NCBI GenBank assembly: GCA_032158125.1
Contig: JASKOT010000017.1
Span: forward strand, 124,001 to 188,000
Length of the DNA: 64,000 bases
Direction of reading: 5' to 3'
Source of the DNA: Papiliotrema nemorosa
Taxonomy: Eukaryota; Basidiomycota; Tremellomycetes; Tremellales; Rhynchogastremaceae
Part shown: piece by piece, positions 19,051 to 57,085 of the stretch
Numbering within the stretch: the stretch's first letter is position 1
Layout: each line of letters opens with the position of its first letter
Position numbers and translations under genes: made by a program
Notes under the pieces: generated by a model
The model's database searches: none
Seen by the model: only the letters and a program-made list of their open reading frames with translations
Told to the model about the DNA's origin: nothing

Positions 19051-19559
19051 ATTCTCGCTGTGAGAGGTCGTTATGTCGTCGTAAAGTGGGTCATTGGACT
19101 ACACGGAGCAGACAAGATGTGCTCGCTTGTTGTCGTCTCTTGTGAAGAGATGTTGGAGGGAAGACCGACTGAGAGACCATCGCAAGCCAAGGGGGGGTGG
19201 AGAGAGTCAGGAACGGGTCTTCATTCCTTCATTGTTCTTGCTCGTGGCGTTGAACAACAACTGCCCCTCAGCCTCGACATCGTTTCAGGTATGCACAACC
19301 GGAGCAGACTATTCCAGTGCACCGAGATAGGCAAGAGGCAGAGCATGAGCATATTGCGTGCAGGCCGATTCCGGCCACGAACGGCGTTGATGAGATCCCC
19401 CAGACCAACAGCTTAAAGTGACAATGCCTATGCATAGTGTGAACTCATCTGAACTAGCGCATATCACGTCTCGTCTCACCTATCCTCACACCGTCTCAAA
19501 CGCGTGTAACCCCCTTCCACTCGCACTTACGCGTTGAACATGTCATCCATCCTGTACCA
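19051..19559. other. STE11 promoter / ETF1 3' region
   Basis: About 510 bases between the STE11 start and the ETF1 stop, both on the minus strand. It contains one exact pheromone response element (19229-19237) and no supported gene. Confidence 0.55.
19229..19237 (+). promoter_or_regulatory. Pheromone response element (YYATTGTTC) upstream of STE11
   Basis: TCATTGTTC matches the YYATTGTTC element reported as the Mat2 HMG-box binding site of Cryptococcus. It is about 180 bp upstream of the STE11 ATG, in reverse orientation to the gene. One 9-base match in 500 bases is weak alone but fits the matches at the pheromone and STE3/STE12 promoters. Confidence 0.5.
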
Positions 19560-27516: not shown

Positions 27517-28002
27517 TGTACGTTGTCGCTGATATCATTTGGGTCGCTCTCTGTAAGAGGGATTGGCAGTGTGTAGGTGAGTTGGGATATGGGTCGATGT
27601 ACAGAGTCGATGAATGGCTTTCAAGATGATCGTCGACGAAACACGCGCTCAGGGCGCGTCCCGAATACGAAACAACAAGCAAACATCCTACCCACTTGCT
27701 CCAAACCAAGTCTTGCCGGAGCTATGCATGCAGATAGATCACAACAGTCTGCCAAAGACAAGCGAGCTTTGAGGTGTGGCCATATCTCCATGACACAGAT
27801 CCGAACTCGTGTCATGGGAGTTTCATCACCAAGAAGACCCCTTTTCCTCATCTGGCGGGTGAGATCACCTGGTTGAGATGTCGACTCCCAGGACGTGTCC
27901 TATAGCTCGCCCATATACCATTATTCATCTGATAAAGACTGATGATTCGTACAAGTCCAAGATATCCTCAAGTTCCTACCGCTCATCCGCACATCCACCA
28001 TC
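27517..28002. other. Intergenic, NDC80 3' end to BTB/CAP-Gly promoter
   Basis: About 490 bases upstream of the BTB/CAP-Gly gene. Small frames exist on both strands but none shows conserved protein character. Confidence 0.45.
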
Positions 28003-30253: not shown

Positions 30254-30468
30254 AATGGAGGCTTGTTTCAAGCTTCAGCACTATAGTATTACTGTCGAGT
30301 CTGAGTCGGCACGATGCTATGCAGCAGCGATGGATGCAGTGATGAGGATAGCGTCGAGTAGAATGTGCAAGATTACCAGAAACCCCCTTTTGTTTACATT
30401 GTTGCAAAGACGCGTCGAGGTCAAAAATTACCCAAATGGGACAAAAAGAAATCAATCTGAGGATTCCT

Positions 30469-32175
30469 CTATTTCATGACCTCTTCCAGCACACTCTTGA
30501 CCTCTTGCAGGTCACGCTCACTCAGACCAGTCCGCCAGTTGCTCACTGCCAGTCGGATAGCTCCTACACCTCTCCACTTGGTCCCCGTGACATATATTCT
30601 CCTAGTGTTGTTGATCGCTTCCGTCAACGCGCCAGATGAACCTTCAGTATTCGGCGGGAATCTGGACGTCGTTGATCCTCTAAAGAGGACAGTGTTGAGT
30701 GGGACAATGCCTTCTGTACCTGGAGGAGAAGGGTTGAGAAGCTCATAGTGGGGCGAATCCGAGATGTACTGCGCGACTTGTCGGGCATAATCGATGTTAC
30801 GGCGAATGATATCGCTATATCCCTCTTTACCGAGACTGAGCAGACTTGCAAACAGTGGGAGAGCGCGGAATCGACGAGAGTTCTCGATGTTGCAGTAAAG
30901 AGGGTTGGGCACTTGGTTGTGTGACAATTGACCTGGAACAATCCCTTGTCCAGCCTGGGTCGAGGCGGACGAGGAGAGGTATGCTGGTGCAGTAGCTGGA
31001 GCGAAGACATTGGCCAACGCAGCAGCATGTCGAGTGAAGAAGAGGCCGCAATCATACGGCACCTATCAGTCAGTGCAAAACAACGCTCCCACCTACGTTC
31101 AGCCACTTATGAGCTATGATCAGCTAATTCCATGCCTCTAGAAGGAGACTCACCGTCGAGTGTCAGACTGTCTGCCATCTCCATTCCCCTGGTCAGATGC
31201 CGCAGTTCCGGCACCAATGCTGCGAAGCCGCCGAAAGCTTTTCTTCAGTCGGTATCCCGAGCTATAGAGATGTAACTCACCAGCATCGATATGTAGCCAT
31301 GCTCCGTGTTCTCTGCACAAAGAGGCGACCTGATTCAATCCACGCCCGAGTCCACCGGTGTTGACTTCGCCCAATCCATAGTTCACGATAACCCCTCGTC
31401 CCACTTTTCTCTCCTCCTGCAGTCTCGTTCGCAGAGCTTCGAGGTCGAAGGCGAGCTCATCGTCTGACGCCGCCGGCATGGCATGCACGACTCGAGGTCC
31501 TGCTCCGATACCCACAAGCCCGGCCGATTTTGTGACGGAGAAATGGGGGTATAGTGAGAGGATGATTATTGGCGGCGATGGCAGAGTCGGGCTGACAGGT
31601 GGACCATCCTGAGAGTAAGAATAGCCTACAGGAAGATGGGGTGAGGTCGAGTACAGATAATCTCTTGCGCAAGCTAGAGTCAGCAATCTCTCATTGAGCG
31701 TAGACCTACCCATCCCGAGCACGTTGGAAGCTGTAGCACCGGTAGTGATCGTTCGGCCAGGATAATTCTCCCTAGGTATTTCAAGCAGATCAAGAACAAG
31801 CTCCAGGGTTCTCGCTTCTATCGCGGTGGAAGCTGTAGCTCCTGGCAGAGTCATCTGAACATTCTCGTCGTAACTCGTAGCCAACATATCCGCAATTTGA
31901 GCTGCAGGTGTAACGCCGCCGGTGACAAAGCCATAGTACCTCGGTCCAGGCTGGCCAGGTAGACATCCCGGAAGAACCTCATCAAGGAGGTATGCTGTGG
32001 CCCCGGCTGTCCCCAGTCCCTTCTCGGGCAAGTTCACCGGGAGAGATGCGACTGTTTTGGCGATTTGATCTACGGGCGGTAGGGTGTCCAGCGAGTCTAG
32101 CGCATTGTACCTCTCGAGAATGTGGTCTGCGACTTTTTTGAAGGTCACCTCGAAGTCTTGCCCGTGCGTAGCCAT
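30469..32175 (-). CDS. PLP-dependent group II amino-acid decarboxylase family protein
   Basis: About 490 residues, starting MATHGQDFEVTF (ATG at 32173-32175) and ending ...VLEEVMK at 30469. Fold-type I PLP enzyme: PRYYGFVTGGVTPAAQIADML, TTGATASNVLGM (phosphate cradle), VNYGLGEVNTGG, AWLHIDAG followed by an intron and the PLP-lysine motif, which splices to LTLDAHKWLNVPYDCG from three exons near 31070-31160. The family decarboxylates aromatic or acidic amino acids; the substrate cannot be read from the sequence. The motif LNVPYDCG is typical of the aromatic-amino-acid/diaminobutyrate decarboxylase group. Divergent from the Munc13-like gene. Confidence 0.85.
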
Positions 32176-32518
32176 TGTTTGGGGATGAAGTAGAGGTTGA
32201 TGGCATCAACTGCATGGTGCTGCATGGATGAGATTCGAGTCGTGCGGCGCATTACTTGATAGCCGAGGTTTACGGAGACCCTCGGTGATCTCTTGCGCGC
32301 CTATCTCTTTCTGGTATTATATGGGGGGGGGGGTTTACAATAGGCTTGCGTCCGCTTCATGACGCTCAAACCAGGCGATGAATAACAAATATCGACCGTG
32401 ACAACAATCCTGGAAGCTTGTATTATTGACACGATACAGCTACGGCTTTTAAGAATAGTATGATATAGGACGGATCATCACGAGCAATTGGTTCGAAGGC
32501 TCAGAAGTGCGATCGATC
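32176..32518. other. Divergent promoter with 11-base G run
   Basis: About 340 bases between the decarboxylase and the Munc13-like gene. It includes an uninterrupted run of 11 G at 32323-32333. No gene seen. Confidence 0.5.
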
Positions 32519-35500
32519 ATGTCGGGAGGTGACTGTTTCGAGTACGTCCACCGTATATGAACTAAGCGGTGTTCAAGCCGCATTTGTCAAGGTCAAACGC
32601 TGATCGTCTAGGTATACATTGCGTGTAGCGTACGCAGATTGCCATCTTCTAGTCACCATAAACTCACGTGCAGCTGCCTACAGGTCGTCACGGAGCAACG
32701 GACCAGACAACCGCCTCCGCCTCCTACACCTATCGCTGGTCCATCTTCAACCGGGCTTCAGACTCCAGGACATCAACCTAGAAAGTCATTACACGATGCG
32801 GGGAGTTCATTTCGGGCTTTCGATCTGTCGTCACTTATCGGGAGGGATTCGAGCAAATCGCCTAAATACCCGGAGAAGCTGTTGAAAGTGCTCGAATTGA
32901 CTTTGCAGCGTATAGCCATGGGTCAAGAGCCAAAGTGAGCTCGACAGCATTCCTGTGACTCTAGCTGATTGGCAGATACTCGGACCAGAGGTTTCGGCGG
33001 ACAATCGCATCATTCTGGAATTCACCTTGGGGAGAAAAGCAGTTTCAAAAGCAAATGAGGGAATCGAGAAAGATTGAGGATCTGATCTTACCATTCGTCA
33101 CTTCAGCCACGAAATCTCTACAGAAAGACGCAGAGATGCAAGACGGCGCATGGAAGTTTGAGCTCAACACCCAAATCGCCCTCTTTCTCGACTTGCTGGC
33201 TGATTCGCTCTACTCGGTCGGACCGTCAAGTGAGCTCGTAGGGCGTTTGGAGAATTATCGACAGCGCTTACGCGAACCTGCGCCAGCTCTTACACCGGGA
33301 ATAGTTAGTGAGAGGAATAGTTTGTATGGATCGGAGAGGGGTCATGGGGGAGACGCAGAGAGTGTACTGAGCCAACGGAGTCGATCAGAGGGCTTGAAGG
33401 GGAAAGAAACGGAAGAGGTCGCTCAGCTGTTTGGGCTGTCAGATGAAGCGCTACAGGCCAAGCTGAAAGAGCTGCAGCCGATAGTCACAGAACAGGTTAG
33501 TCATTGCCTGCTTCAAGATGAATCTTGGAGCATGAACATATGCTGATGTTCAGGCGGCACTGGAGGATCTCAAAACTTGCCTCAAGGTACTCAATACCGA
33601 TTCACCCGTACCCTACGGTCCCCATGACTTCTCGGATCCCGCTCAATGGACGGCATATCGAGCGAGCGAGGTATCGACACTATCCCAAATGATGCTGCTC
33701 ATGATGCAATCTAACACCTCTCTGGTCCAGTCATCGGATCGCGATCGAACTTCCAACGGCGGCGACCTATCCTCTCGCGTTGACTCACTACGCTTAGATG
33801 CACCCGCCACCACTTTCACCTTCGTCCCGCCAGATCCCAAGGCTACATATAGGGAGCTCTTGGCGAGGTGTTTAGACTGGGACCTGGAGGTTCTGAGTAC
33901 GCTGCCGGAGGACGAGGATGTTAGTCTAGGCGTCTTGTCGCAGGAGCACATGACGTTGTTGCGCGAATGTGCGGTCAGATGGAGGTTGCCCGCGAGGTTT
34001 CATGCGTGGACATTTTTGGATGCGATAGTAGAACGGCTAGAACAGGGCAATGTCCCCCCTGCCTGTGTCCACGAGGCGACGGCAATGGTCGCCAAGGCGT
34101 CAACCGAAGTTTCGGTTGACTCTTGGGCGTCATCAGATGTGAGAAACATAATGTCCGGTGACTCCCTACTGATTTCATAGCGGACGGGTCTCGAAATGGC
34201 TCTCGCGCGGCGCGATGCTTGCTTCCTGGCGGCCGTGGACCAGGCATTGGCTTATGGGAAAGGGGGTTACCATTCGCCCGATTTTTTGGAGGCTGTCACG
34301 GACTGGCTGGTGCTTGGGACGCCAGATGTTTCCGGCGGGCATCTGTCCAGGATAGCGGAAAACATCGTCTCTCGTATACGGTCACAAGCTTTCGAGAGCT
34401 ATGTCTCAGAAGCAGGAGACCAGCTTGATCGCGAAGGCAGTAGAACGAAAGCCTTCGCAATGGGCATGGCGACTTGGATTGAAAAGGAGGCCAAGAAGCT
34501 CAACAAGAGGTTTGGGGACCCGATAGCAGAGTGAGTGTCGCACTGTACGTGCACGGGGGAGAGTTGACGTCTCAGCAAAATTGATCTGGTCCCGCTTGTC
34601 GTAACGCAGCAGCTCTCCCTGTGGTTCCGAGATCTCGAAGACTCGATGGCTCAACCTGGACCTGGCGCCCCGGAGGACGATGTGGAGGAAGCTTTCGAAC
34701 TGTATAGAAAAGCTCAAAAGGTCATTCAGCTCGGCAACGCTTTTGCCTCGTGGGTTGAAGATGCCGCTTTCTAGCTACGGCTGATACACAGTGAACCGAT
34801 ACATTTCTCCTTGTCACCTGTGTTTGAGGGTATTGTGAATGCTTGGTTGAATCAGACTGCGAAAAAGACGAGGCAATGGTCCGATCAGGTGAGCAATTTG
34901 ATTTGTACGAGTCACTTTGCTGAATCTCAGGCTCTTGCCGTGGACAACGTGAGCTATCTGCATCTGGACACCACGATGACTGATTACAGTTCGAACCGAC
35001 ATCCGAGAATGGCCCATCATCCTCTGTGACCGATTTGTTCACATCCTTCCGCAGTGCCAGCGACTTCATCATGGAGCTAGACTGGCCAGATGAGCAGCAA
35101 TTGGCTCATTTTGCTACTCGTCTCGCCAAGGTCCGTTGAAACGATCCCCGCTGCGTACTCAATTAATTGGCAGATCTTTGCGCTCTCGATACATGATTAC
35201 TGTAACAAGATGGAGCAGCTTTTCGCTGAGGACATGCGCAAAGATGAGGCTGTGCAACCTGCTCAGACTGCTGCAAAGCAGAAAGCCTGGGTCGAGAAGG
35301 CAAAGTCAACGTTGGCAAGTCTCCAGGGCGAGCGCAAGATTCAAGCGTTCTTCAACTTTACTCCCGCTGTGAGTGACATCACTTGTGGATGGCTGTCGGC
35401 TAACTTCGCAGTCCTGCGTAAAGCTGAACAACATCGAGGCTGCACGTCAGCAATTAGATAAGCTGTATCAAGAGATGCGAGTGGACGACCTAGCAGCACA

Positions 35501-37040
35501 TGATCCGGTCGAACCTCCACCCCCGCCCGAGCATCAAATTTACCTTTTCTCCGTCAAGATCGTTTTGGCGGAGGGTATCGGTCTTGATGGGGTGAGTAAG
35601 CTTCCCGACTCCTTCGTCATTTTGTCCGACGAACACGGCAATCGTTACGCCAAGACACGGACGATATACGATGATGCAGATCCGAGATGGGACGAGACAG
35701 TGGATATACCTGTTCGAGGCCAAGCCTGGTTCATGGCAACTATACGGCATCGCACGCTGGCAGGGAAACATGACCTGTTAGGACGAGCATATCTCAAGCT
35801 GGACCCCAATCAATTCCAGGATTTGATATCGAGAGATGTTCTGTTACCTCTTGATTCGAACGGTCACCTTCTATTGCGGATCAGCATGGAGGGAGAAAGG
35901 GACGACATTCAGTTCCACTTTGGAAGAGCCTTCAGGTGGCTAAAACGGACCGAATCCGACATGATACGGACATTTGTCGACAAGGTGGGTAACAGACCGC
36001 TGATCTATGCTGATGGCAGATGACACCCGTTCTGCGCCACACTTTGTCCCGAGCATCGCTCAAATCTGTTCTCAAACCAAGTGGGAATCTGGCAGCTTCG
36101 CTCGATTACAACGAGGCACTAGGCAAAATCTCTGCCGCGTACCGTTCTGTCGATTATAATGAAGCTTTCGGGAAGATCACCGCTGCGTACAAGTCGGCCA
36201 TGGGTACCCCAGAGTACTCTATTCCTCTGCCGCCCGGGGAAGAGAGGCCTCTGCCACCTGCACCAGCCGATTCTTCCGCTCCCAGTTCGGCCACTGCGCG
36301 CCGGAAACCGCCTACTGACGCTGAGATCGAAGCGGCGATCCATCCTTTGTTCGATTATCTCGACGCGAACAACCACACCCTCGCATCCACGCTGTCGCGT
36401 GACGCCATGCAGTCTGTCATGGCCAAATTGTGGAAACAAATCTTGATGACCATTGAATCCCTCATCGTCCCCCCTCTTTCGGACAAACCGTCGCATATGC
36501 GGGCGTTATCGGATGGCGAGCTGGACATTGCGCTCAAGTGGTTGAAATTTTTACGCGATTTCTTCTACGTTGGCGGAGATGAGAGTGGGGTGCCTTTAAG
36601 CGTGTTACAGAATGCCAAGTTTAACGAGATTTTGAGCGTACGGATCTATTACGACTGGAAGACGGACGATCTTATGGAGGTGAGCATTTTTCGAAATTTG
36701 TGCAATGCTCGAGTGCTGATCAGAAGGAATGTATTAGAGGATTTCAGACGACGTTGAAGTATAGAGCTACGCGGACCGCCAAGTCGATGATGTCTCAACG
36801 GAATTTGGGCACGATACGAGCTAGAAAGACCGCAAAGAAGGCTGGACCTGCAGGAGCTGGGAACACCGAAATGATCATGCGCATCCTACGTATGAGGTGA
36901 GTCGTCAATGACATCGCAGAGTATTTGCTGACGTCTCCAGGCAAGGGACGCAAGAGTTCTTAGCCCAGCAGATCCAAACGATTTCCATGATTAAATTGGA
37001 GAACCCGAAGAAGGGGCGGAGTATTATCGCCCGCCGATAA
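32519..37040 (+). CDS. Munc13/UNC13-like protein with C2 domain (fungal DUF810 type)
   Basis: Large protein of about 1,300 residues in ten or more exons, from ATG at 32519 (MSGGDCFEY, exon 1 only 23 nt, then TLRVAYAD) to TAA at 37038-37040 (...GRSIIARR). N-terminal helical MUN/MHD1 part (LLKVLELTLQRIAMGQEPK, LALARRDACFLAAVDQALAYG), a C2 domain at about 35540-35890 (YLFSVKIVLAEGIGL, DSFVILSDEHGNRYAKT, DPRWDETVDIPV) and an MHD2-like C-terminus (LFDYLDANNHTLASTL, ALKWLKFLRDFFYVGGD). Relatives such as fission yeast Ync13 support vesicle fusion during cytokinesis and wall building. Two Asp of the usual C2 calcium loops seem present, but calcium binding is not certain. Confidence 0.85.
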
Positions 37041-37528: not shown

Positions 37529-39974
37529 ATGGCATACAACAGCATTTCCTCTCTAACCCCATCACGTCCTGCCCCTACTCCACCTCTACGCCCAGGGGGT
37601 TCCAACACCGGTGTGAGATCAGCCTCAAGCAGCTCGTCCCCTAGAGGTCCAGGCGGTCAAGGCTCGGCTATATCGTCCACGTCTTACAATTCTTCATTCC
37701 CCATCATCAACGCCTCTTCAGCTCTTGGACCTCGACCTGTCTCTGTTAAAAACACGGTAGTGAGGACAGGCCCTGCTAGTGTGAAAGAAGAAGGGCTTCG
37801 AAGCTTCTTGTGGAGTAAAAGATGGTTGGTACTCGGTGCTACCGACCTCCAAATTTTCAAGAACGAGGTGGGTCATTCAAATTGAACCTCATTCAAATGA
37901 ATCTCACTGTGTAGCAATCGAGCTCGGCGAGTTACACGTGTCCGCTGGCAGAAGTGGTGGATGTCCAAAGGGTGGACCTCAAGCCGTTCTGTATAGAACT
38001 GGAGATCAAGGAGAAACTCTTATACTTCGCTTTCAGAAGCGATGAGGAGGTCTATGGATGGATGGAGGATATATACTCCAGGTCGCCCCTGATGGGTGTG
38101 TCTCAACCTACCAACTTTGTACACCAGGTACATGTAGGCTTTGACCCCATCTCGGGTGGATTCACGGTGAGTCAAGTGCTCGGTCTGCGACTGTGCTGAC
38201 GAGAAGGGTCTGCCACCGCAATGGAGCAAGCTGCTCACCTCTTCTGCTATCACCAAGGAAGAAGCAGCTCGGCATCCGGAAGCAGTCCTGGATGTGCTTC
38301 AATTCTACACTCAGCAACAAATGGGCCAAGGAGGCGGTGATTATCAACCGGCTCCCATCCCGACATTACCGGCTCAGGGGCGGACGACTAGTGCTTCGGC
38401 GACTCGGTTCGAGGGTGTCGGTCTTGCAGGTCAACCTTCGCACATGAAAGAGAGGGAGAGGGAGCAACAAATTCTGCGCGAGAGGGAGAAGGAGCAAGAA
38501 CGGGCAAGGGAGAGAGAACGGGAGAGAGAACGTGAAAGAGAAGCGGAGAAGGCTAGAGAGAGGGAGAGGGCGAATGTGGGTCCACCTGCATCGATGCCGT
38601 TGAGCGCGGGCGCTGATGGTGATAGGCTGCAGACAGGTCAAGGCAGCTCGTGGCGGAACGCAAAGCACCTCCTCCTCCTAGACCACCTGGACCTTCTGCT
38701 CCTGCTCCGAGAACCGAGCCAAAGTCGACGCCCAAGCCGGAGCCGGCCGCACCGCCAGCTGCGAAACCGGCAGCATCGACGGCTCGGGCGACGGAACGCA
38801 GGATCAGCACGATGAACGAGGTGCAGATCATGGACAAGTTGCGCACTGTCGTCAGTCCAGAGGATCCGTCACGCCTGTATTCCAAGATCAAAAAGGTTGG
38901 ACAAGGGTGAGTTAACGACTTGTGCTTATGAGATACTCTGACACGCAGTGCTTCTGGTCTAGTCTTTGTAGCAAAGACACTGGCCACGGGCAAAAAGGTC
39001 GCCATCAAGCAGATGGATCTGGCTGCACAACCTAGAAAAGAATTGATTGTGAATGAAATCATCGTCATGAAAGAGTCGCAACATCCGAATGTCGTCAACT
39101 TCCTCGAGGCTTTCTTATTACGCAATTCAGAGCTGTGGGTCGTGATGGAGTATATGGAGGGAGGAGCATTGACAGATGTGATCGAGAACAACAAGCTAGC
39201 GGAGGATCAAATAGCGTCCATCTGCCTCGAGGTGAGTTTTGCATAAGCTCCAAATTCGGTGCTGACGAGCAGACCTGTCGAGGTCTGCAACATTTGCATT
39301 CTAGGTCCATTATCCATCGAGACATCAAATCGGATAATCTGCTCATGAACACTGCAGGAGAGATCAAAATCAGTGCGTTCATCGCGATATATAAAGACTT
39401 TACGGCTGATCTCTCTAGCCGACTTTGGGTTCAGCGCCAAGCTCACTGACCAAAAGTCAAAACGTGCGACAATGGTCGGTACACCCTACTGGATGGCGCC
39501 CGAGGTCGTCAAACAGAAAGAATACGGAGCCAAAGTCGACATTTGGTCTCTCGGTATCATGGCTATCGAAATGATCGAAAACGAACCTCCTTATCTCGAT
39601 GAAGAACCCTTGAAGGCATTGTATCTCATTGCGACCAACGGAACACCTACACTCAAATCGCCAGAAAAGCTGAGTCAGGATCTCAAACACTTCTTGAGCG
39701 TGTGTCTGTGTGTGGACGTTGCGTTCAGAGCGACTTCGACGGAACTGTTGAAGGTGAGTAGCATGCGACTAGTCTCGTTTCCCTCTCCTCCACCTGTGTC
39801 CTCTTCTGGCCGCATTGGTCACGTGCCTATACTATGGAATTTAGGTACCCCCGCAAAACTCGCCTTGAGACCAAATCAGAAGGACCAGAACGCTGACAAT
39901 TTCAGCACGAATTCCTGCAGACCGCTTGTCCAGTGGCTCAATTGGCCCCCTTGCTCGCTTTCAAGCAAGCGTAG
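37529..39974 (+). CDS. STE20: PAK-family kinase with PH and CRIB domains (Ste20/Cla4 type)
   Basis: Cdc42-activated kinase that links the pheromone receptor G protein to Ste11 and polarity. ATG at 37529. Ser/Pro-rich N-terminus; PH domain from about residue 87 ([22 protein letters not shown], continued after an intron); CRIB motif [24 protein letters not shown]; a highly charged Arg/Glu repeat tract at about 38445-38575; a Pro-rich linker; then the kinase ([50 protein letters not shown]). The frame change in the linker fits an intron of about 70 nt (near 38575-38645). The last exon, after the intron ending at 39904, gives [17 protein letters not shown] and stops at 39972-39974. PH plus CRIB is the Cla4 layout, which is also that of the mating-type-linked STE20 in this class; synteny favours STE20. 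Confidence 0.88.
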
Positions 39975-42900
39975 AGAAGGTCCTCCTGGAATCTTGGACC
40001 GTTCTCGCCCAATTATGGGTACCCGTCATCATCGGATCTCCCGCATGCGGATGCAGTCATTATCAATGGTTGCCACCCACCTCGATACCTAGCAATGTTA
40101 CACCTACTGTATGCATCGAGTGTTGTCCCGGCATTCACATGGTATACTCCTATCAGCAGGACAGCCGGGAAATCTTGGCGCGTGGTCAGGGCCTGGCTGA
40201 GATGGGCTTCGGATCTGGGCTACTAGACAGAGCTGAAATAGGTCAGACGTTGGGGTCCCCCGATCCGGGGTAGTTTCCGAGGTGAAGTCGTGCTGATGGA
40301 GCTTGACCACCACTCAACAAGCTGAACGGAGGTGGATCCGACAAATCGGATCGAAACGAAATGAAGGGACTGCTCCTAAGACATGAGACCTAGGGGCTGC
40401 CCTCGCTACAACAGCAACACGAGAACAGCTCAAACTCCCCGTTTCGCAATAATCGGCTGACTCGATGTGAAAGATGGAACAACTCCTTGACCCACTTAGA
40501 CGCCATGATGACCGCGAATATAATCGCGAGCGTGGTGTGAAGACAGGGAATCACTAGAGGCTTCTTGAAAGGCAGAGGCTGACGCCAGAGGAAATGACAG
40601 CGGAGTTTTGTGCGTCACAGCTCGGCCTTGAGTGTCAATTGTGAGATCTGGCCGGTGGGTGAGAGGAGCTCGAGGCACGCTGATGCAAGAGAGAGAGTAG
40701 CCACTTAGTCCCGACGAAGCGCGTCCGTCCAGAACTTCAGTCCTTTTCAAGGAGATGAGAAGGTCCCCGGGTCGGGACGACGGAGGCTCGTCTCGCCGGA
40801 GACGTGGTCGGATCGGACGAGTCCTCCTCGAGTGACCGAATCCTGAAGGGCTGAGGCGACCATTGATGACGGTGCAGAATGAGACAGCCACTGGCATTGG
40901 ACAGCTATTTCATACAGAATTCGAGTATCTGCATCGAGGAATAAGAGCAGGATCTTGCGATCAGTACTCTTATGGCTCCATATAGACGGCAGAAACACGT
41001 CTCGATCATCAGCTGAAAGAGCCTCTCATTGGGACGCACAACGCCCCTACAGGTCGAGAAATCTAACGGCAGTGCCGTGATCGTCGCCCGCGTAGTGATG
41101 AAGACGACAAGGGCACATGGGAATCCGGAATATATCATCTCCTGGCAGATACGGGAGATTTGTCCCTGTGGTTGGGACACATGGCACATGTGAGCCAAGG
41201 CGCAAAGATGACGAAATCCAAGCGGGCCCAATTTGACTGCTCAAATACAAGGGTAATATCATTGACCCGAGTCGGATCCACAATTCTGTAACTCGAAGCA
41301 ACATTAATTAGGATCAAAAGAATTCCAGCTTTTGCCCAGGGTGCAGCCAGCAGGTAAACATGTATCGGCTGAGGAAGCTGTCCGAACAGACAATACCTCC
41401 AGCGTAGCCGTTATCTCCCTCGCCAAAAGTCCAATGATTCTGCGCCCAGAGCCTTCTCATTCACCTCAGAAACGACGACGTACCTGAGCAAGAAGGAGGC
41501 TATGGTCAAGTTGGGATGGGCATCTCTATACCTCAATTTTGAGCTGCTGCCACGGGAACAGGAATGATGAGCACCGGATGCCGCTGTGTACAGTCTAACG
41601 GGACTATCTGCCACTTTCGTCACTCTAGACCGACCGTCGTTTCATCTCTCGAATGGTCTGCGCCTAGATTGTATCAAACTCAAGCATTGCCTGAATGATT
41701 TATGCTGATCCGCGCGCTGATTTCCGCACCACACCAGTCCAGGTGGAGGGTCTCTGTTTTGGGAAGCCCCAGCTATTCGAAGTGTACGACAAACAGAGCG
41801 TTATTCGACAGTAAGCAGGGCTACAGAGATAGATAGAGGATACCATGTGCACATCCAATAGCATCCTCGCTACCACCAGAAGCTGTTTTGAGAATGGAGG
41901 AGTCAAGGGCACAAGATGCACTCACGCTGGATTCATCACTGGGTAACAGGTGACTGCTGATGACGCACTTTTGAGATCGTCCACCTTGACCTGCCATCCT
42001 TCAACTTGTCGCAGCAAACAGCACGACTACAATCCCAATCTTCTGTCAGAGTAGCCGACCGTGGGCGTCGAAACGCTCACCGTCAACTCTCGGTCGACTC
42101 CTGTACTTGATGGTATCTGAATGGTTACTTGATGCCCAGATCTGAAAATAGCTCACTATGCAGGTGTGGACCCAACTTCCATACCTTCACACTGTCGACT
42201 ATAGAAGACTTCTGACCGATCCGACCAGCTTTTTATGTTAGTCTAGAATATGGAGTTCGAAGCGGTACACGTATCCCGACGAAGGAAAGTGATTTAACGC
42301 TCTGACGCAACAACTCTCATCAATCTCCTTGTCGAACACCTTGGCCTCGCTGCTCCCAACTTCCCCGCTTGCGATATGTTCGAACTATTGCAATACTTCC
42401 ATTGTAAAGGACAGCTTTGATAGGATTGTATTCAGCAGGAGTGAGGGGTACTGCTATCAGCTCCCCTCGACTGACACGTTTGACTTCTTAGAGTGCTTTC
42501 AGCGAACGATACTCTCCCCTCAAGCGTGGGTCAATCCAGTGTCGCATCGTGTGTTCGACTCATGTATATTCCACCAGTCTAAGAAGGCTCACCGTTTGAC
42601 GCTTCGATACTCGCATGGAATGTTCTTGTCAGCTAGGCTTGGATGCGAGGATTAGCAGGAAGTCCATCAGGCTCAAGACCATGGCGACCAGAATTGCAGT
42701 TCACCAGGTCGTCTGCATCGGAACCGGGGCGAGGGCTTCGATTGGTTGACTAGAAGCCAAATCGGCGTCAAGCGGTGATCCTTTCTTCGGCAGCTCGACC
42801 ACCACATCGCACATTGACAAGGTCTGGTTCTCCTGCTGTAGCAAAAAACTGCGACTTCAATGGTCGGTCTCAATGGGCGGCCGCCATGAGTTGTGAATCC

Positions 42901-43212: not shown

Positions 43213-44430
43213 TCAGAGCACGTGTCGATCGACGTGGACCGATACGGCGAGACCGGACTTGCGCATATCATGCTCTGCAGAAGGCACGATGGACATGCCC
43301 TCGAATCCTCGCTCAATGTCGACATCCTTGGCAGAGCTGGTGTCGCGCCAGTCGAATCCTGCCGGTCTGGCGATGGCTGTTCCAAGCTTGGGCACAAGTT
43401 GCGGTGATCTGCATGGTCAGCTGGTGCATGTATGATCGGTGTGGTGATCGAATCACTTACGATTGAACACGAGGTCTGACCTTGTCACGTATGACTTCGT
43501 ACCATTGACCATATCCTCGAATAGCATCGTCGGTAACGCCAAACAGGATGAAGAAGACGAATGCGAGTAATGGAGAAATCCAGAAGAGTAACACCGAGAG
43601 TGTGGTGAACCCAGCATCGGTAAAGTAGAGATCAAAAGAAGGTTCGTTGATCTCTCGCACGAATCCCCAATGACTGTAGACGCTCTTGATTCCAGGCCAA
43701 TCAATCAAGTTTCGACATTTGTAGACGAGAACAGCGATGTGTAGTGGCATGCCCAATACCAGATCGGCGCTGGCCATAGCCATCAGTCGGAAGTACTGCC
43801 CTGTACTCAGTCCACTCTGTGAGCTCTTGAGCAAGGTTCTGAATTGAAGTCGACGGGCCAAGAAGTATCGGATCGCAATGCCTGGGATCAGCTTGATACG
43901 AAACTCCTCGGGGTATCAGTCGACACACTTCCGTAGATCATCGAGATGACACCCAAGATCACTGGCCAGATATAGACGAGGAAGATGGACGGTAAGACAG
44001 GCAGAAGCGCAATCGTACATCCACTACCTTCGACCACAAGGAAGCGTTGTTCTTGCGGGATGTATGACAACGCCATGATGAGAATCGGAGCTCCGACACA
44101 TAAGCCAATGTCGATGCCCAAAGATATTCTATTCTGTCGCTGACTATGGATACAGAACGCGAGGCGGCAATTGATGCGAGTCGACGATTGATACAGAGAC
44201 TACAAGCGGACAACGCGGTCGCGAGAGCCACAGTGATCTTTGTCTTGTTTCGGAGCCATGTACACCCCTTTGGCATGTGTTTAGGCCAACTATATCGCTC
44301 ACAGGGTTGTCGTTTGTGCTGCTTCCTCCCAACAGAGAATGCTGTTATCTGAAATACATCTCCCTTCGCGTACATATAGTTCCATTGTCCTTTCTGGCCC
44401 AGCCGTCAGGGGGTTGAGAGACAAATGCTA
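43213..44430 (-). pseudogene. Damaged STE3-like pheromone receptor (second receptor lineage)
   Basis: The 3' two thirds read as a normal Ste3 GPCR in three exons: LGIDIGLCVGAPILIMALSY, YIWPVILGVISMIYG|SIAIRYFLARRLQFRTLL, LFWISPLLAFVFFILFG, and after an intron a cytoplasmic tail ending SVHVDRHVL at the TGA at 43213. Upstream, the TM3 region (ALSACSLCINRRLASIAAS) is in a different frame; the shift falls at about 44134-44146, where the intact paralog has no intron. Further upstream TM1-TM2 cannot be read: only shards such as PPDGWARKDNGTI (for PxxHWRARNxxT) and W....TKI remain, and the WCD motif is lost. The promoter has no pheromone response element. It is clearly divergent from the intact STE3 at 52811-54102. 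A sequencing error could explain the shift but not the lost TM1-TM2. Confidence 0.68.
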
Positions 44431-44785: not shown

Positions 44786-47316
44786 TCATGTCCTCCTTCC
44801 CGATCGCATCGCATTAGGACCCCGCCCATTCTTACTTTGTTTCTGTTCATCGTCAGTGTCCACAAACTCACAAACTTGGAGAAAGCCTACCTTTGCAGCG
44901 ACCTGTCGATCTCGCATCATCTGCGACGATGTCTTCAGCTCATTGCGAGCTGATTTTGTAGTCGATGACCGAGGGCGCACAGGTGCGGTCGCCTTGTGAC
45001 CATGCTTGTGTTTGGTCTGATTTGGGCCGTCCGCCCGAGCACCCGTCTCGCGTTCATTGGATACGGTCTTTGCTCCTCGCCTTCCTTTACGCCATTCATC
45101 GTACCTACCGCTCTTGTAGCTGGCGGGTAGTAATGCACCGCTCTCACTTCGGATGAGTTTCTTGTTGTCAGACCCGACTTCATCCTTGACCATTCGTTTC
45201 TTCTTTCGATCCCATTTCAGCTGACTGGGACGATTTGCTCGAGCTGCGGCACCCTCGTCTTGGGTCATGTCATATGTGACCTGACCAAGCTGTTCGACAA
45301 AATTGGGATTCTTCATGGAATAACTAGGGGTTAAATCAAAGCGGCAGGAGAAGATCGAAAGCGCTCACCCTTCGTCGTCGACTGCATTGGATCGCGTGTG
45401 GTCGATGTAATGAGCCTCATCTCGGAAGCTGCTAACAGGACGCTGTCTGGTGAGATTTGGGGCCAGGACGATTAGGATAGTCACTGACCTTGAGGGTCCG
45501 GGAGGGGCGCGGAACGTCTTCCGACTCCAGTGATTCCGGTTGCTCTGCCTTGGCGGCTCGATTTGCAACCAGCTTGCGCCGTGCGGTCATTAAATCCGCA
45601 TTGCCCCCTTGTCCTCTGTTGCCCATTTCTAGAACTGTCTCCGACGGCGTAAAAGCACTGATCTTGGCGAGCAAGTCGAGCCTTTGTGAATCCGATGTAC
45701 TGCCATACGCGGCAAAGGAAGGATGAGGCGGCAAGACATCTGCCCCTCCTCGGGCCTCCTTGGCTTGCTTGTGGGAACGAGATGCAGCTTTGGGTCGTGA
45801 CCGCTCATACATGGCTCGACCTCGGTGCATGACCGCTCGAAGGGTGGGGAGCTCTTGAGAAAGCTCATCGAGTCCAGCAATTGTCTCGACCTTTTGATCC
45901 AGAGCCGTTTGTGGTATCGACCAGAAGCGACCTGATTCTGCATTGGAAACATCTAGGCGCAAAAAGGTCTCGAGCTCGATGAGGTATGGCAGATCCTCCC
46001 GCGTGACAAACGACCAAGCGGTACCTTTGCGACCCGCCCTGGCCGTCCTCCCGACTCGATGAACGAAATTCTTCACACCAGCAGGAAAGTCAAAGTTGAT
46101 GACGTTGTCCATGATTGGGATGTCGATACCACGAGCTGCGACGTCTGTCACGACCAAGAGATCGGCGTACCCATTCCGGAATCCGTTCAGTTGTTGCTGA
46201 CGTGCGACTTGATCGAGTGATCCGTAGATGTGATTAACGCGATAACCTGCTGCAAGAAGGAGAGGCTGGAGGTATTCGACATGATGTTTGGTCGAGACAA
46301 AAATGATCGCCTGATTGGTAGACTTTTCTGCGTGATTAACCGGGATGGCAAGAACAGATTCGAGCACGGCGAGAAGAGCGGCATCTTTCGTGTCGGCTTT
46401 GGCCTGAAAAAAGCAGAGCTGTAGATCTTCACTGATCTTTTGCTCCGCGTCGAGACGATGCAGGAGGGGATTAGTCAGACCGGCCTTGGCGAATTCGGCA
46501 ACAGCGGAAGGTAGAGTTGCTGAAAACAGGAGATTCTGACGGTTCGATGGCAGTCGATGCAGGATCTCGTGCAACTGAACTTCGAAACCCATCTCGAATA
46601 ATCTGCAGCTTAGCACAGCGGTCAATAGACTACTCACCTATCTGCCTCGTCATAGATGACCATCTCGACGCTTCTCAGATCGTAGCTCATCTCGACTAGG
46701 AGATGTAGCAATCGTCCTGGCGTAGCTATGATTCTGTTGAGTAAGCAGTGAGATGTGGATGTAGCTTACACATCCGGAGCGCTTGAAAGGGCCTCGAATT
46801 GCGCATCCAAAGAATCTCCGCCCATGATCAAAGTCCATTTGAGCCCGGAACCTTCTCCTTCCTTGCTCAGTCCTCGACCGAGGTCCTTGCCCACCTTGAG
46901 GATCTGGGATGCGAGCTCACGAGTTGGACAGAGGATGATGGCTTTCGGTCCCGGCGCTGGCGTTCCACGACTGCTCAACCTCTGCAACAGCGGAACGATA
47001 TATGCGAGTGTCTTGCCGGAACCCGTTCGAGCCATCCCCAAGACATCTCGAGGGGGAGTGGATAGAGTGGACGGCAAAGTTGTACGCTGTATAGGTGTAG
47101 GAGTCTTGAAGCCTCGCAGTGTTAGAGCTCGAGTGAGGGCTGGCGAGACGCCTAATAATGTGAGCTGCCAAAGATCACCTCGCACTCACCCAGGCCCGCC
47201 CAAGACCCCCCTCCTGAAGGTTTCTGCTTGCCTTTTGTGGCAGTTTTACTCGACGAGGGTGCTGAAGATGGACCTGGAGCTGAATCTGCCCATGACGGAA
47301 TCGCGATTGTTGCCAT
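44786..47316 (-). CDS. DBP10: ATP-dependent RNA helicase Dbp10 (DDX54)
   Basis: DEAD-box helicase for 60S subunit assembly in the nucleolus. ATG at 47314-47316 ([15 protein letters not shown]). Q motif [16 protein letters not shown], motif I ARTGSGKT, motif II YDEADR split by an intron at about 46630, SAT in [11 protein letters not shown], motif [16 protein letters not shown] and [11 protein letters not shown], motif [12 protein letters not shown]. The C-terminus carries the DBP10CT region ([21 protein letters not shown]) and a basic tail ([13 protein letters not shown]) ending in SGRRT at the TGA at 44786. It lies between the two receptor genes and is divergent from REI1, so two ribosome assembly genes share a 170 bp promoter. 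Confidence 0.94.
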
Positions 47317-47488: not shown

Positions 47489-48908
47489 ATGTTCACCTGT
47501 ATATCGTGTCGTGTCGCCTTCGAAAATGCTGCCGAGCAGAGAAATCACTTTGCGACCGATTGGCACAGATATAACATGAAGCGTAGAGTCGCAAATTTGC
47601 CCCCCGTGCCGGCTACAGCTTTCAACGAGAAGGTCATTGAGAGAAGGGAACAGAATGCGGTCAGAATTGATCCACGGGATCTTTTCTGTGTATCTTGCAG
47701 GTAGGTATTGATGGAAGATGTAATTGTCGCTGATGTGTGATAGCAAATCCTTCTCCACCGACAATGCTTATCAATCACACCTACAATCAAAGAAACATCG
47801 AGAACGACAGGCGGCCCAACAAAAAGTAGAACAGGGTCGATCAGAGGGTGACGTCGATCAGCATACCTCTGCAGGACCTTCCCAAGCAGGACCGACATCA
47901 ACATCAGTCATAGAAGACCTCGACGAAGCCGAAGACTCGGCAGAAGATGACGACGAAGGGATTGACGAGCGTCTCGCAGCTGCTCGTCGCCGCATTCGAC
48001 CATCTGATTGCCTCTTCTGCCCTCTATCATCCGTTTCAATCGACGACAATGTACTGCATATGGCGAAGAAACACAGCTTTTTCATCCCTGATCAGGATAT
48101 CCTCATCGACCTTCCTGGGCTTTTGTCGTATCTCGGCGAGAAGATAGTTCTGGGCAACTTGTGCATCTTCTGTCCAAATGGGGGCAGAGAATTCTCAGAC
48201 ACGCGAGCGGTTCGGAAACACATGATCGACAAGTATCACTGCAAGCTGGCGTATGAGACGGATGAGGATAGGGCGGAAATCGCCGACTTCTACGACTTTA
48301 CTGGCAACGTGGGTACCGATTCTGACTGGGAAGAAGTAGACGGAGGGAACAGCGAGGATGGAGAGAATGGACAGGATGACATCATCGACGCTGTAAGTCA
48401 AAGGTCTCCAATAGAATGAGCCTTGGTAACAATTAGGAACCATCGATGGTTACATTGGCACCAGATGGACTCTCATTGATGCTGCCCTCGGGTCGTACGC
48501 TCGGTCATCGCTCACTGAAAGTCTACTATAGCCAACACCTGCGACCGTCAAATCTCTCGAACAAGGATGATGCTCGATTGGCAAAAGTCAAACAAGTCCG
48601 CGATCGACTTGCCGATCCCACTCTAGCTCTTGTACCTGTCGCAGGAGGTCAGGGTGGATATGGCAAAGGTCTCCAAGTGATGAAAGCGCGAAACGCGGGT
48701 GAAGCCAAATGGGCCAGGAAACAAGCTGGTTCATACAAGGATGTCCGAGTGCGAGAAGCCTTCAAGACGCGTGTTGGATATGTGCATAACAATCAAAAAC
48801 GTGCGTATAATTGGAAGATGAAGAACCCTAGCTGATTGACAGACTTCCGAGATCCTTTACGTATGTCTAAACGTGGTGAATGTCTGATTCTGACCTGTAG
48901 TGCAATAA
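47489..48908 (+). CDS. REI1: Cytoplasmic 60S maturation factor Rei1 (ZNF622)
   Basis: C2H2 zinc-finger protein that helps remove Arx1 from cytoplasmic pre-60S particles and probes the exit tunnel. ATG at 47489. Finger 1 CISCRVAFENAAEQRNHF with the conserved DWHRYNMKRRVANLPP, finger 2 CVSC|SKSFSTDNAYQSHL across an intron, acid linker, then CLFCPLSSVSIDDNVLHM, FCPNGGREFSDTRAVRKHM and the C-terminal LPSGRTLGHRSLKVYYSQ. Two further introns place the last codons as KHFRDPLLQ, the family's typical C-terminus, with TAA at 48906-48908. Confidence 0.94.
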
Positions 48909-51652: not shown

Positions 51653-52017
51653 GAACAATAAGGCCAATGCATGCATTTCGGTGTTCCTCAAAGGTTTTTT
51701 TTTTGTACGAGTTCTGAAACACGGGGGTGACTCGCTCTTTTGTTCTTCCAAGATGCGCCATTTCTTTTCCCGCCCCTTTCTTCACCACCCGTCTGGTCTT
51801 ATTGTTCTTTTACCATATCTGACGGCGTGGTTTTTGTTCAGGCGACACAAATGACACGGGAACGCCATCATTCATTTCTAAGCGCGCGAACAATAGCGTG
51901 CTTTGAGAGCTTATTGTCGAACAGCTTCAAATCCTTATTGTTCATGCGTGGAAGTTGTTTCTGTCGTGTCCTGGTCTCTTTTTGTTCTTTTTGTTCTACG
52001 GAAGGGGCTTATTGTTC
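51653..52017. promoter_or_regulatory. Cluster of pheromone response elements in pheromone promoter
   Basis: Five exact matches to YYATTGTTC within 365 bases: 51653-51661 (-), 51799-51807 (+), 51888-51896 (-), 51935-51943 (+) and 52009-52017 (+). Near matches TTTTTGTTC occur at 51831, 51979 and 51988, TTATTGTCG at 51911 and CTATTGTTA at 52032. In Cryptococcus this element is bound by the HMG-box factor Mat2 and drives pheromone-induced genes. The cluster ends about 160 bp before the pheromone ATG. Confidence 0.8.
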
Positions 52018-52175: not shown

Positions 52176-52421
52176 ATGGTCTCTGCCGCCTACATCGCTG
52201 CCTCTGCCCCTGGTCAGACCGACGAGTACGTCAACCCCTTGTTCATCAAGCCCTCCATCGGTTGCGTCATCTCCAACAACGAGACCACCGTGGACGAATA
52301 CGTCAACCCTCTCTTCATCAAGCCCTCCATCGGCTGCGTTATCTCGAAGAGCGAGGCTCCTGTTGAGGAGTACGTCAACCCTCTCTTCATCAAACCCTCC
52401 ATCGGCTGTGTTATCGCTTAA
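52176..52421 (+). CDS. Lipopeptide mating pheromone precursor with three tandem units
   Basis: An 81-residue precursor: a short leader (MVSAAYIAASAPGQT) followed by three 18-residue units with the core EYVNPLFIKPSIGCVI, ending in S, S and A. Units start at residues 16, 40 and 64 (period 24) and are separated by NNETTV and KSEAPV. The protein ends in CVIA, a canonical CaaX box for farnesylation, -AIA cleavage and carboxymethylation; the two inner units end CVIS and would need cleavage after them before prenylation. Small size, CaaX end, leader, the response-element cluster upstream and the STE3 gene next to it identify it as a mating pheromone gene. Multi-unit precursors are known for rhodotorucine in Rhodosporidium; Cryptococcus MF genes carry one unit. 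Ser/Thr-free of introns in the coding part. Confidence 0.93.
   Translation: MVSAAYIAASAPGQTDEYVNPLFIKPSIGCVISNNETTVDEYVNPLFIKPSIGCVISKSEAPVEEYVNPLFIKPSIGCVIA
52221..52418 (+). repeat. Three 54-base pheromone repeat units, 72-base period
   Basis: Units at 52221-52274, 52293-52346 and 52365-52418. Units 1 and 2 differ at 7 bases, all synonymous. Units 2 and 3 differ by synonymous changes plus Asp to Glu at the first residue and Ser to Ala at the last. The core peptide is identical in all three. Confidence 0.95.
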
Positions 52422-52810: not shown

Positions 52811-54102
52811 TCAGACTACTGAACGCTCTATGGTTATGGGAATGCCACGATCCCGATGCCAAACTCCTGTGGGACTGCCGCTCTCTGACGCAAACTCCTC
52901 TTTATCATCGAAAGCCAATGTACCCAAGGCGTTTTCTTCGTCAAACGGTCGTCCTGAGGCCGACACCATCTTTGATCCCAAACTTGGCACGGAAGGAGGT
53001 GGAGTTACCGGACGCCTATCCATCAGCTTGGTTAGGCTTCAGAGCGTCGTACTTACGCGATCTTCCGTCTCGAACCTAAACACGCGAAAAAGCCGATGAA
53101 CTTGCTCCATACGGCGACGTATTCGGTGATAGCTTCTTCTCCCAAGCCAAAGAATACGAAGAAGACCAACGCGTATAATGGTGACGCATACAGCGCAATC
53201 ACATTGACGAAATTCGTCGATTGGGACTGTTGACCGTCTGGAAATTGGGATACGGTGCCGAAGTCAAGATGCACCTCCTTAAAGCTGCCGTACGGCCTGA
53301 TTTGCGAGTCAAGAGTGACAACAATCAATCCGATCAGATCGTTGGTAAGGAGAATGACGATCTCGGCTACGGCGAGAGCAATGAGACGCAGATATCGACT
53401 CACGCTCAATCCTGTGTGCGATGAAGCTAGGATTGCGCGGAATTGTAGACGACGAACGAGGAACCACCGAACTGCGAGGGCTGAGATGGCAATCAGCGAT
53501 ATGTTCTACGATGATTGAGGAGTGAGAAGACGCCACTCACCCGAATAGACCAAGACAGCTATCGAGATGACAATAGGCACGAGTAATTTGACGGCTATTC
53601 CAGGCCATGTGATAAAAGGTGGTACCGCACACCCGATGCTTTCGACGATATCGTAGCGATGACCTTGAACGACGTAGAGCAAGGGAAGCATTAAGGGTGG
53701 AAAGACGAGGCACATCACGCCTTCGATCCACATCCTTCGAGTCCGCTCAGAAGCCGTGATGACGGTCCGTCTAGTGGAGGCGACTTGCTCTAAACGTCGC
53801 ATTTGGGCGAGACTGCAGATCGGCACCGCGTAACCCATGAGCTGGATGATCCTTCCACCTGAGCATCAGCCTCTATCGTCTGATCCGCTGAATAACATAC
53901 TGATGTCGCACCATACAGGCGCAACGTCGGCAAAGTTGTCGGCCCAAATGAGAGAGTTAATGAAGAGGACAGCATTGCTAAGAGCGATCCAAAAGATCAA
54001 GGATAATGTGGCTACATTGCGAGCGCGCCAATGCCAAGGCGATGGGAGTAGCACGATGAAAAATCCGAGTAGGGTCCAGATTGGATAGTCGGGATGTTGC
54101 AT
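52811..54102 (-). CDS. STE3: Pheromone receptor Ste3 (intact)
   Basis: Seven-helix GPCR for lipopeptide pheromone. ATG at 54100-54102: MQHPDYPIWTLLGFFIVLL, then PSPWHWRARNVATLSL and the family WCDI motif (APVWCDIS). An intron joins GRIIQLMGYAVPICSLAQM (TM3), LVFPPLMLPLLYVVQGHRYD (TM4), WPGIAVKLLVPIVISIAVLVYSG (TM5), RRLQFRAILASSHTGLSVSRYLRL (third cytoplasmic loop) and TM6-7. A TAA in a GTAAGT donor after SRRKIA is spliced out; the last exon codes the tail RPVTPPPSVPSLGSK... ending IPITIERSVV with TGA at 52811. All helices and usual receptor motifs are present. Its promoter, shared with STE12, carries response elements. Confidence 0.93.
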
Positions 54103-54187: not shown

Positions 54188-54301
54188 GAACAATACCGTC
54201 CAGAATCCAAAATGAAGCGTGAACAATACAGACCAATGCTACGAACAATAGAGCATTGTGAAGGTTGACACGTGGCGCAGGGCCAAGAGGCGTTATTGTT
54301 C
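54188..54301. promoter_or_regulatory. Pheromone response elements between STE3 and STE12
   Basis: Two exact YYATTGTTC matches, 54243-54251 (-) and 54293-54301 (+), and two near matches GTATTGTTC on the minus strand at 54188-54196 and 54221-54229, all in the 396-base shared promoter of divergent STE3 and STE12. Both genes are therefore likely pheromone-induced. Confidence 0.7.
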
Positions 54302-54498: not shown

Positions 54499-57085
54499 AT
54501 GTCTACATATACGCACTTCACGGATGCAGATGGGAGGTCCATCGATACTGGCAGTCTCGTCACCAATGCGATATCCAGCGATAGGTGAGCAGACAATTTT
54601 CACTTCAATCGGTGATCATTTTGGTCTATTATTCGGCTAACGAGTATAGTGTCTCTATCCTGGATCAACTTCAGCTTTTTCCTCTACCTATCCCACCCGC
54701 TGTAACCCCTCGCCCCATCACCGCCGATGAACGGGCCCGCATAGACACCCTCGGAGAGCTTCAGTTCGTGAGTTCATCCTGGCTTTCGCGACCCTATCAG
54801 CTGCTCTGTGTCTTCCTGGTCGAGTCTGGATCGCTACCTATTCGAAAGACTGCGCGGGATGCATGACCTGATGGACGCGTCTGGAAGCACGACTTACACA
54901 TTGGATCCACCTCGCTCTTTAAGGTTCACGGGTGATGCTGATCTTGACCAGTTCCTCGCCACTGCTCCAACGCGATGGAACCAAGCCGAGACAGTGGTAC
55001 GTCCCCATGGCAGAGCGCATCGGTATATGCTGATCATCCGAAGCCGAGCACGAATCTTACCAAGTTTCAATTACCCAATGGGGAATATGTCTCTTGTGTA
55101 TTGTGGAACGGTCTGTACCACATCACCGGCACAGACATTGGTGCGTGACTGCATGATGACATATCCCTCGCTGATGATCAGTAAGAGCACTAGCATTCCG
55201 TTTCGAGGCATTTGGTAGACCGGTCAAAGCGACCAAGAAGTGGGAAGAAGGGGTGTTTTCGGATCTGAGGAATCTCAAGCCCGGTCTTGATGCCAGTCTT
55301 GAAGAACCCAAGTGAGCCTCTGCTTCGTCGATTGAACTCATATTGACTCCAGATCCCCTCTTCTCGATTTCTTGTTCAGGAATGGCTGCATCAGGACACA
55401 AAAGAAGGTACGCTTGACTTTTTGAACTTGACGAGATGCTGACATGTGTAGCAAAAAGTTTTCTATTGGTACGCATCCTCGACCATCGAGTCCCCACTAA
55501 AGACCAGGTTCTCCGTACCACACGACCGATTGTTCCTTGATGCTTTGGAAAGAGATCTAAAGAGGGAAAAAGCTATGCAGACACCCACCACAGAAGTGGT
55601 CGGAGAGCCTGCTCGCAGTTTCAGGTGAGTTGATCGGCTTTGTCTGCTCGCTGATGTCAGATATGATCCCCGTCGAAGTCTGTTCGAACAATTTGCCGGT
55701 CAAAATCCCGGACTGACCCAAACACTCCTCGTATGCCTCAACTCCACCAGTGTTGCCGATCTAACCTCCCAGACGCCCGGTTTCGATTATGGCTCCATGG
55801 ATCCGTCTACAGCCAGACCCAGTCCGGCGCCAGAATCGTCTCACAGTGGATTCGGCTTTGCTCCGCCTATGCACAGCGAGGCTGCCGTATCGGACCCCGG
55901 CATCGGTCGTCCGTATGCTGTTTCACCGGCTCCTCCCAACAACTTGAGTTTTCAGCGAACTCTTTTCGAGGGTAGTCCAGCATACAAAAAGCGTCGCATG
56001 CGGCCTCGCGAAGGGACATCGCCGTCTGTCATTGACGAGCATGGTATTCGACGAGGAAGTCCAGCTGGTCGATCGCTCACTGCGGAGATGCGAAGCGGTA
56101 CACATTCACCCCGAGCATCACATGCCGCGCTGCGTAAAGTTTCAGGTGAGTCGTCGGATCAAACCAGCGAAAGACGAAACACTGATAACGCGTTTCAGGT
56201 AACAGCGATCGAGAATTTAGCCCCTCTGTCAAACGAGAACGTGACGAGTCGATGGGACCAGATTTCGAGATTCGTGCTGGAGAGAAAATGTTTGTATGCG
56301 CTTTTGAATCTTGTCGTCGACCGTTCAAGCGATTGGAACATCTCAGACGCCACGTCAGGACACATACGCAAGAAAAACCATTCACATGCGGTAAATGTTC
56401 TAGGTCCTTCGCTCGACAGGATAACCTCACCCAGCATCTGCGCACACATGATCGAGATGAACTAGCCAACAATGGTTCCCTAGCGATAGGCACACCCCCT
56501 CCACGTGAAGGCATCGATTATCATGTGGTCACAGCGGGTCCCGGTGTCGAGGTAGCACCATATCGATGGCCTTCTGCAAGTCCTGCCCCTGGCAGCGAAG
56601 TGTAAGTGATCAACTCTATATTTACTGACATTAGTCAAATGCATCAACAACCTTATAGAGTCATGGGTAGCATGCCACCTCCTTCATTACCCTACGGCTC
56701 TCGACATTCCACCGCTCCGCCCGAGTGGTCAGCCATAACACCCGACCCATCCATGTCGACTGGCCAAGATGGCGCATATCACGACTACAACGGTATGCGA
56801 CGATTCCGATCCGTGACTCCTAGTGCAGTCTACAACCCTGTCATGCAGCCGCCTCCACCAGGCTGGGGTCAAGCACCGGAACCGGCTCCCATGGTGCCAT
56901 ATCAGTTTGCGTACTGGAGACCTCCTTCCGACTTGCCATATGTCATGCCGCCTCAGCCGGGATCGGCGGTGGGTTCAGTACAGCAAAGCCCGATTGTCAG
57001 CGCCGGATACGACATGAGTGCTGGAACACCTATATCGTACGGTGATCCTGCAACAGAATCATACCCCACGCCTTCTGCCGATTAA
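54499..57085 (+). CDS. STE12: Ste12-type transcription factor with homeodomain-like STE domain and C2H2 fingers
   Basis: Terminal factor of the pheromone MAPK pathway. The start chosen is the ATG at 54499 ([16 protein letters not shown]...); exon 1 splices in phase to [17 protein letters not shown] 184-nt intron (54768-54951) separates GELQF from [13 protein letters not shown]. The STE DNA-binding domain follows across several exons ([82 protein letters not shown]). Then a Ser/Pro-rich middle with [10 protein letters not shown], two C2H2 fingers ([19 protein letters not shown] and [21 protein letters not shown]) and a Pro-rich tail to the TAA at 57085. STE domain plus C2H2 fingers is the basidiomycete Ste12 layout. 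Confidence 0.92.

Follow-up and report, generated by a model that had tools for sequence, protein, structure and literature searches.

In the red yeasts, each precursor of rhodotorucine A carries identical farnesyl-pheromone peptides in tandem, with CaaX-like spacers between them (PMC3068285, PMC3236058), and only synonymous changes are reported for RHA2.A1 (PMC3236058). Repetition of another kind is described for the h-type precursor HPP1 of the ascomycete Trichoderma reesei, which contains three (LI)GC(TS)VM copies, the last one forming the CaaX, and two Kex2 sites (PMC3068285). Among the Tremellomycetes, the pheromone precursors of C. heveanensis have 39 residues (PMC2873909) and that of Cystofilobasidium capitatum has 41 (PMC8545103). 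The precursors of C. neoformans, C. gattii and T. mesenterica end in CVIA, and the mature Tremella pheromone, tremerogen a-13, opens with a Glu described as conserved among the pheromones of Cryptococcus (PMC2873909). Kwoniella has one pheromone gene per P/R locus, and in Cryptococcus pheromone dosage is raised with up to four genes (PMC12510652). A sequence-only reading made before this analysis had described Cryptococcus-type MF genes as single-unit, which agrees with the 39- and 41-residue precursors and with the one gene per Kwoniella locus; unit number is not discussed in the available text of those reports. An MF gene has also been reported in P. flavescens, with no description of units in the text available; the same paper names CAUG01000363.1 as the P/R contig of that species (PMC4374795).

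Here we analysed a window of 64,000 nucleotides (the whole stretch of DNA under study) from Papiliotrema nemorosa, which contains an MF gene with three units. Judged from sequence, this gene most likely encodes a single-copy lipopeptide pheromone precursor in the P/R locus, and three identical farnesyl peptides would be cut from its one 81-residue chain.

The MF gene and its repeated units

The coordinates, strand, frame, 81 codons and three cores at a 24-residue period given by the sequence-only reading were reproduced exactly on translation (Table 1). The core EYVNPLFIKPSIGCVI occurs three times without any change, starting at residues 17, 41 and 65, and is followed by Ser, Ser and Ala. Each of the three peptide copies is thus followed by a CaaX stretch and, as had been noted earlier, only the last of these is C-terminal: CVIA ends the protein and both CVIS are internal. 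All three units open with Glu, and the residue before it is Asp, Asp or Glu. Tandem Repeats Finder detected the array independently (period 72, 2.7 copies, 85% matches). There is no dibasic pair, and hence no Kex2 site, in the 81 residues, and no obvious cleavage site, dibasic or other, was found after the internal CVIS. C-ending codons make up 64% of the gene versus 30-31% in two neighbouring frames, which suggests high expression.

Table 1. Features of the window, by position; the neighbouring genes are listed last.
Feature	Position	Strand	Remarks
MF pheromone precursor gene	52176..52421	+	81 codons then TAA, no intron; from translation
MF leader, MVSAAYIAASAPGQTD	52176..52223	+	16 residues
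MF unit 1, EYVNPLFIKPSIG-CVIS	52224..52274	+	
MF spacer 1, NNETTVD	52275..52295	+	after Ser of CVIS
MF unit 2, EYVNPLFIKPSIG-CVIS	52296..52346	+	
MF spacer 2, KSEAPVE	52347..52367	+	after Ser of CVIS
MF unit 3, EYVNPLFIKPSIG-CVIA	52368..52418	+	true C-terminal CaaX
Five TATTGTTC upstream of MF	51653..52017		51653-, 51800+, 51888-, 51936+, 52010+; 166-523 bases before ATG
Intact STE3 pheromone receptor	52811..54102	-	382 residues; introns 53859-53900, 53481-53540, 53016-53056
Four TATTGTTC upstream of intact STE3	54188..54301		54188-, 54221-, 54243-, 54294+; 93-199 bases before start codon
Broken STE3, another class	43457..44282	-	first ~55 residues missing, frame changes
STE12	54585..57085	+	STE domain 55056-55422, in-frame C2H2 fingers 56189-56605; ends approximate
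REI1/ZNF622-like C2H2 protein	47724..48835	+	ends approximate
DEAD-box helicase, DBP10 position	44786..47185	-	ends approximate
STE20-type PAK kinase	37915..40092	+	PBD and kinase domains; ends approximate
BTB protein (-), NDC80 (-), PLP decarboxylase (-), C2/weak-MUN protein (+)	25587..36757		
STE11-type kinase	15138..19098	-	SAM, weak Ras-binding and kinase domains; ends approximate

Within the 48-base core, units 1 and 2 differ at six positions, units 1 and 3 at seven and units 2 and 3 at three, and every difference is silent. Comparing the 17 codons of EYVNPLFIKPSIGCVIS (51 bases) between units 1 and 2 gives 7 differences, again all silent. The earlier count of 7 silent differences in 54 bases was right as to number and kind, and its 54 bases are reached only by including the preceding Asp codon. 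If six changes fell at random, the probability of all being silent would be 4e-5, 1.7e-4 or 2.1e-4 with transition weights of 1, 2 and 4, respectively; the figure for the three differences that separate units 2 and 3 is 0.010 to 0.019, a result that is weaker alone. The 8-residue spacers SNNETTVD and SKSEAPVE, by comparison, show 9 differences in 24 bases and 5 in 8 residues. Because the units differ only silently and the spacers have diverged, the array is not an assembly duplicate. The same contrast between core and spacer argues for selection on the peptide, internal CVI included, and for drift of the spacers, and it supports the earlier proposal that selection keeps the peptide constant. 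The conservation of the internal units could in part be an effect of codon choice or of recent duplication (units 2 and 3 differ at 3 sites).

No homologue of the whole precursor was found among 540 candidate proteins at E <= 10, and a protein search with the last 42 residues found none either. Short pheromone genes are often unannotated. A Pfam match to Imm72 (E 0.051; 14.2 bits, with the cut-off at 25) was rejected as chance. In the 19,186,542-base assembly (68 contigs), the precursor matched only itself. Nine frames in the window end in a CaaX; the eight other than MF lack a repeated unit, and at least four of them (18652, 23845, 12429 and 55123) are antisense to larger frames. Our genome-wide scan covered CVIA ends in unspliced frames, and among 11 CVIA sites MF was the one pheromone-like gene. 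Of the remaining ten, two are followed by TGG rather than a stop codon, six lie in frames that contain no Met, one ends a frame of about 200 residues and one a frame of 9 residues.

The P/R locus, its receptors and a promoter octamer

MF had been placed by the sequence-only reading in a Cryptococcus-type STE11/STE12/STE20 region, and all three genes were recognised around it. The same P/R neighbour genes are named in Kwoniella (PMC12510652), and the B locus described in Naematelia sinensis has them too (PMC13085929). On this gene content, MF sits in the Tremellales P/R mating-type locus, in synteny with Kwoniella and Naematelia. Stops within STE12 suggested a broken gene; this was ruled out, as the stops coincide with positions read as introns. 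The MUN match of the C2 protein is weak and below the cut-off. A divergent homeodomain pair lies on a separate contig (C36:25500-33500), with one of its two domains below the Pfam cut-off, and since it is on another contig, linkage between P/R and HD is not established.

Removal of three GT-AG introns gives an intact STE3 of 382 residues, which is convergent with MF, the two stop codons being 389 bases apart. This adjoining receptor, absent from the sequence-only reading, adds support to its proposal that MF encodes a lipopeptide mating pheromone precursor. Among the 120 listed of 341 matches (E <= 0.001), the best is STE3 of Papiliotrema flavescens, with 58% identity over the whole length; a metagenomic fragment in the same 120 is 63% identical over 64% of the query. 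When a tree was built from the C-terminal part of 26 rows, with no alpha/A1 receptor identified in the set as a contrast, the intact STE3 grouped with P. flavescens, the metagenomic fragment and Naematelia (support 86/87, below the firm-support mark). A wider Tremellomycete group with Cryptococcus, Kwoniella and Tremella receptors had support of 88/91, also below that mark. The group includes the a/A2 receptors of K. pini and K. dendrophila (PMC12510652); the C. depauperatus receptor, in the same group, is also termed a/A2. As some members of its tree group are called a/A2, the intact STE3 is probably the a/A2 allele.

About 8 kb from MF lies a second, broken STE3, which shares 34% identity with the intact receptor along 126 residues. 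A search between 42701 and 44900 with eleven relatives as queries did not recover its first ~55 residues at E <= 1, and an intron would have no room between two adjacent pieces, which overlap in different frames. In the tree it falls outside the Tremellomycete group, but on a very long branch that makes this position unsure. In N. sinensis the two STE3 alleles share 35.10% identity (PMC13085929), and a relic of the opposite STE3 allele is reported in K. ovata and K. endophytica (PMC12510652). Given the similarly low identity between the N. sinensis alleles, we read the broken gene as a probable relic of the allele of the opposite mating type. The presence of two STE3 genes raised primary homothallism, as described in Phaffia with two P/R pairs (PMC4915694); this was ruled out, since one of the two is broken and no second pheromone gene was found in the window. 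A third, divergent STE3-like receptor lies on another contig (C4:345000-351000), away from the P/R locus. It may be a non-MAT receptor of the Cpr2 kind.

The octamer TATTGTTC (GAACAATA) occurs nine times on both strands of the window versus about 2 expected, and all nine copies are upstream of MF (five) or of the intact STE3 (four). Other octamers in these two upstream stretches have at most five sites each. The probability of nine copies all falling there is 5e-13 after correction for all octamers, for an octamer and stretches that were chosen post hoc. A TATATAA is also found upstream of MF, at 52078. From its distribution, we regard TATTGTTC as a candidate pheromone response element. It contains an ACAAT core, of the kind bound by HMG-box factors, and the assembly has eight matches to HMG-box genes. 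In Cryptococcus, the HMG factor Mat2 is a mating regulator; no Mat2 binding site was found in the available text of that report (PMC2869318).

We also looked at the octamer outside the window. It was not found in the 700 bases before the ten other CVIA sites, nor in 6 kb around the third STE3-like gene. Genome-wide there are seven close pairs of TATTGTTC versus one for the reversed control. Two of these pairs are upstream of STE3; a scan of 20 frames at the other five showed no recognisable mating gene, which argues against taking every pair for a mating element. The 8-kb homeodomain region on C36 holds four copies, one of them between the two divergent genes. Four copies also accompany an 834-residue frame with no Pfam match (1220-3721, minus strand, within C16:237400-243400), three inside the frame and one upstream.

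Proposed maturation of the three units

We infer that units 1 and 2 are matured as well as unit 3. Each unit would give a mature peptide running from the conserved Glu to the Cys, EYVNPLFIKPSIGC, farnesylated and carboxymethylated. Unit 3 could follow the usual route, in which it is farnesylated, loses VIA, is methylated and cut before Glu, and leaves the cell through a Ste6-type transporter. The other two would first need a free C-terminal CaaX. This could be provided by an endoprotease that cuts after the internal CVIS, a cleavage that the sequence-only reading had proposed to precede prenylation, or MF could be consumed from its C-terminus, and the short piece of spacer left at the end after each release would be trimmed to CVIS. 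Kex2 does not serve as the general cutter, given that the chain contains no dibasic pair. The retention of VIS after both internal Cys suggests that the internal CaaX ends are used. Three units would give more pheromone per transcript, and the expected target of the EYVNPLFIKPSIGC pheromone is the STE3 receptor of cells of the other mating type.

The absence of an obvious site after the internal CVIS, dibasic or other, would fit a precursor in which only the C-terminal unit is matured, the two units before it being a conserved pro-region or left over from duplication. Unit 3 alone has a C-terminal CaaX, and the three-motif HPP1 of Trichoderma is functional after removal of its Kex2 sites (PMC3068285). 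However, unused units should drift, yet none of the 16 core residues has changed (with 6-7 silent differences) versus 5 of 8 in the spacers, and VIS has been retained behind the internal Cys. We consider maturation of the last unit alone unlikely for these reasons.

The broken STE3 in the locus raises the thought that MF is likewise the relic of a former mating system, and this yeast is not known to have a sexual cycle. This appears very improbable, because the MF frame is intact with silent divergence only, the neighbouring STE3 is intact, STE12 reads through its introns and the promoter octamers have been kept. Less credible still is a protein that is not a pheromone at all, either a Kex2-processed repeat protein or some other small prenylated protein that is here by chance. 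Repeats in a short protein would be compatible with it, as would the failure to find a sequence homologue among pheromones. It is contradicted by the CaaX end, by the lack of any dibasic pair, and by a position adjoining STE3 with a promoter octamer in common. A precursor of three farnesyl peptides is the reading we prefer.

Comparison with known pheromone precursors

In the mating-locus literature available to us, supplementary pheromone lists (e.g. PMC6730849) aside, we found no multi-unit precursor in Tremellomycetes. Two Tremellomycete mating-locus surveys screened with M-X(15-60)-CaaX-stop (PMC9210288, PMC6730849). In MF the sole Met precedes the CaaX Cys by 76 residues, and the exact PMC6730849 pattern does not match MF. 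Since such a pattern cannot match it, the absence of an MF-like gene from both surveys says little, and MF reveals a blind spot of these screens. The tandem layout is an established architecture, here in a lineage for which the literature, as far as available, does not report it, and a putative separate origin of this layout, as suggested by the sequence-only reading, is plausible. A fuller version, to which we would give slightly less than an even chance, is that this is a second origin in Basidiomycota, inside Tremellales; that an endoprotease or stepwise C-terminal trimming exposes each CVIS for three rounds of farnesylation; and that it was overlooked partly through 15-60-residue screens. 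If true, Tremellales (Agaricomycotina) would become one of the few fungal groups with multi-unit precursors of prenylated pheromones, and there would be another way to high pheromone dosage, through multiplied units in one gene versus the multiple genes of Cryptococcus (PMC12510652). MF also raises the biochemical question of how an internal CaaX turns into a farnesyltransferase substrate.

Like the rhodotorucine A (RHA) precursors, MF contains several identical peptides, each with a CaaX-like stretch; the likeness is one of architecture, and we do not claim membership. RHA belongs to Rhodosporidium and Sporidiobolus, in another subphylum (Pucciniomycotina), and the spacers of MF are instead acidic stretches of 7-8 residues. 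We take the rhodotorucine A peptide itself to be unrelated to that of MF. With HPP1, MF shares three motif copies of which the last forms the CaaX. However, the h-type (LI)GC(TS)VM motif is absent from MF, which has IGCVIS, IGCVIS and IGCVIA in its place, and HPP1 has a short motif and two Kex2 sites whereas MF repeats a whole peptide exactly and has no such site. MF also does not belong to the Kex2-processed class, in which repeats are split by dibasic sites. The MF precursors of Cryptococcus, Kwoniella and Tremella resemble it in their CVIA end, their conserved Glu start and a P/R locus with STE3, STE12, STE20, DBP10, REI1 and NDC80. Unlike Cryptococcus, where several genes serve dosage, the P. 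nemorosa locus has three units in one gene.
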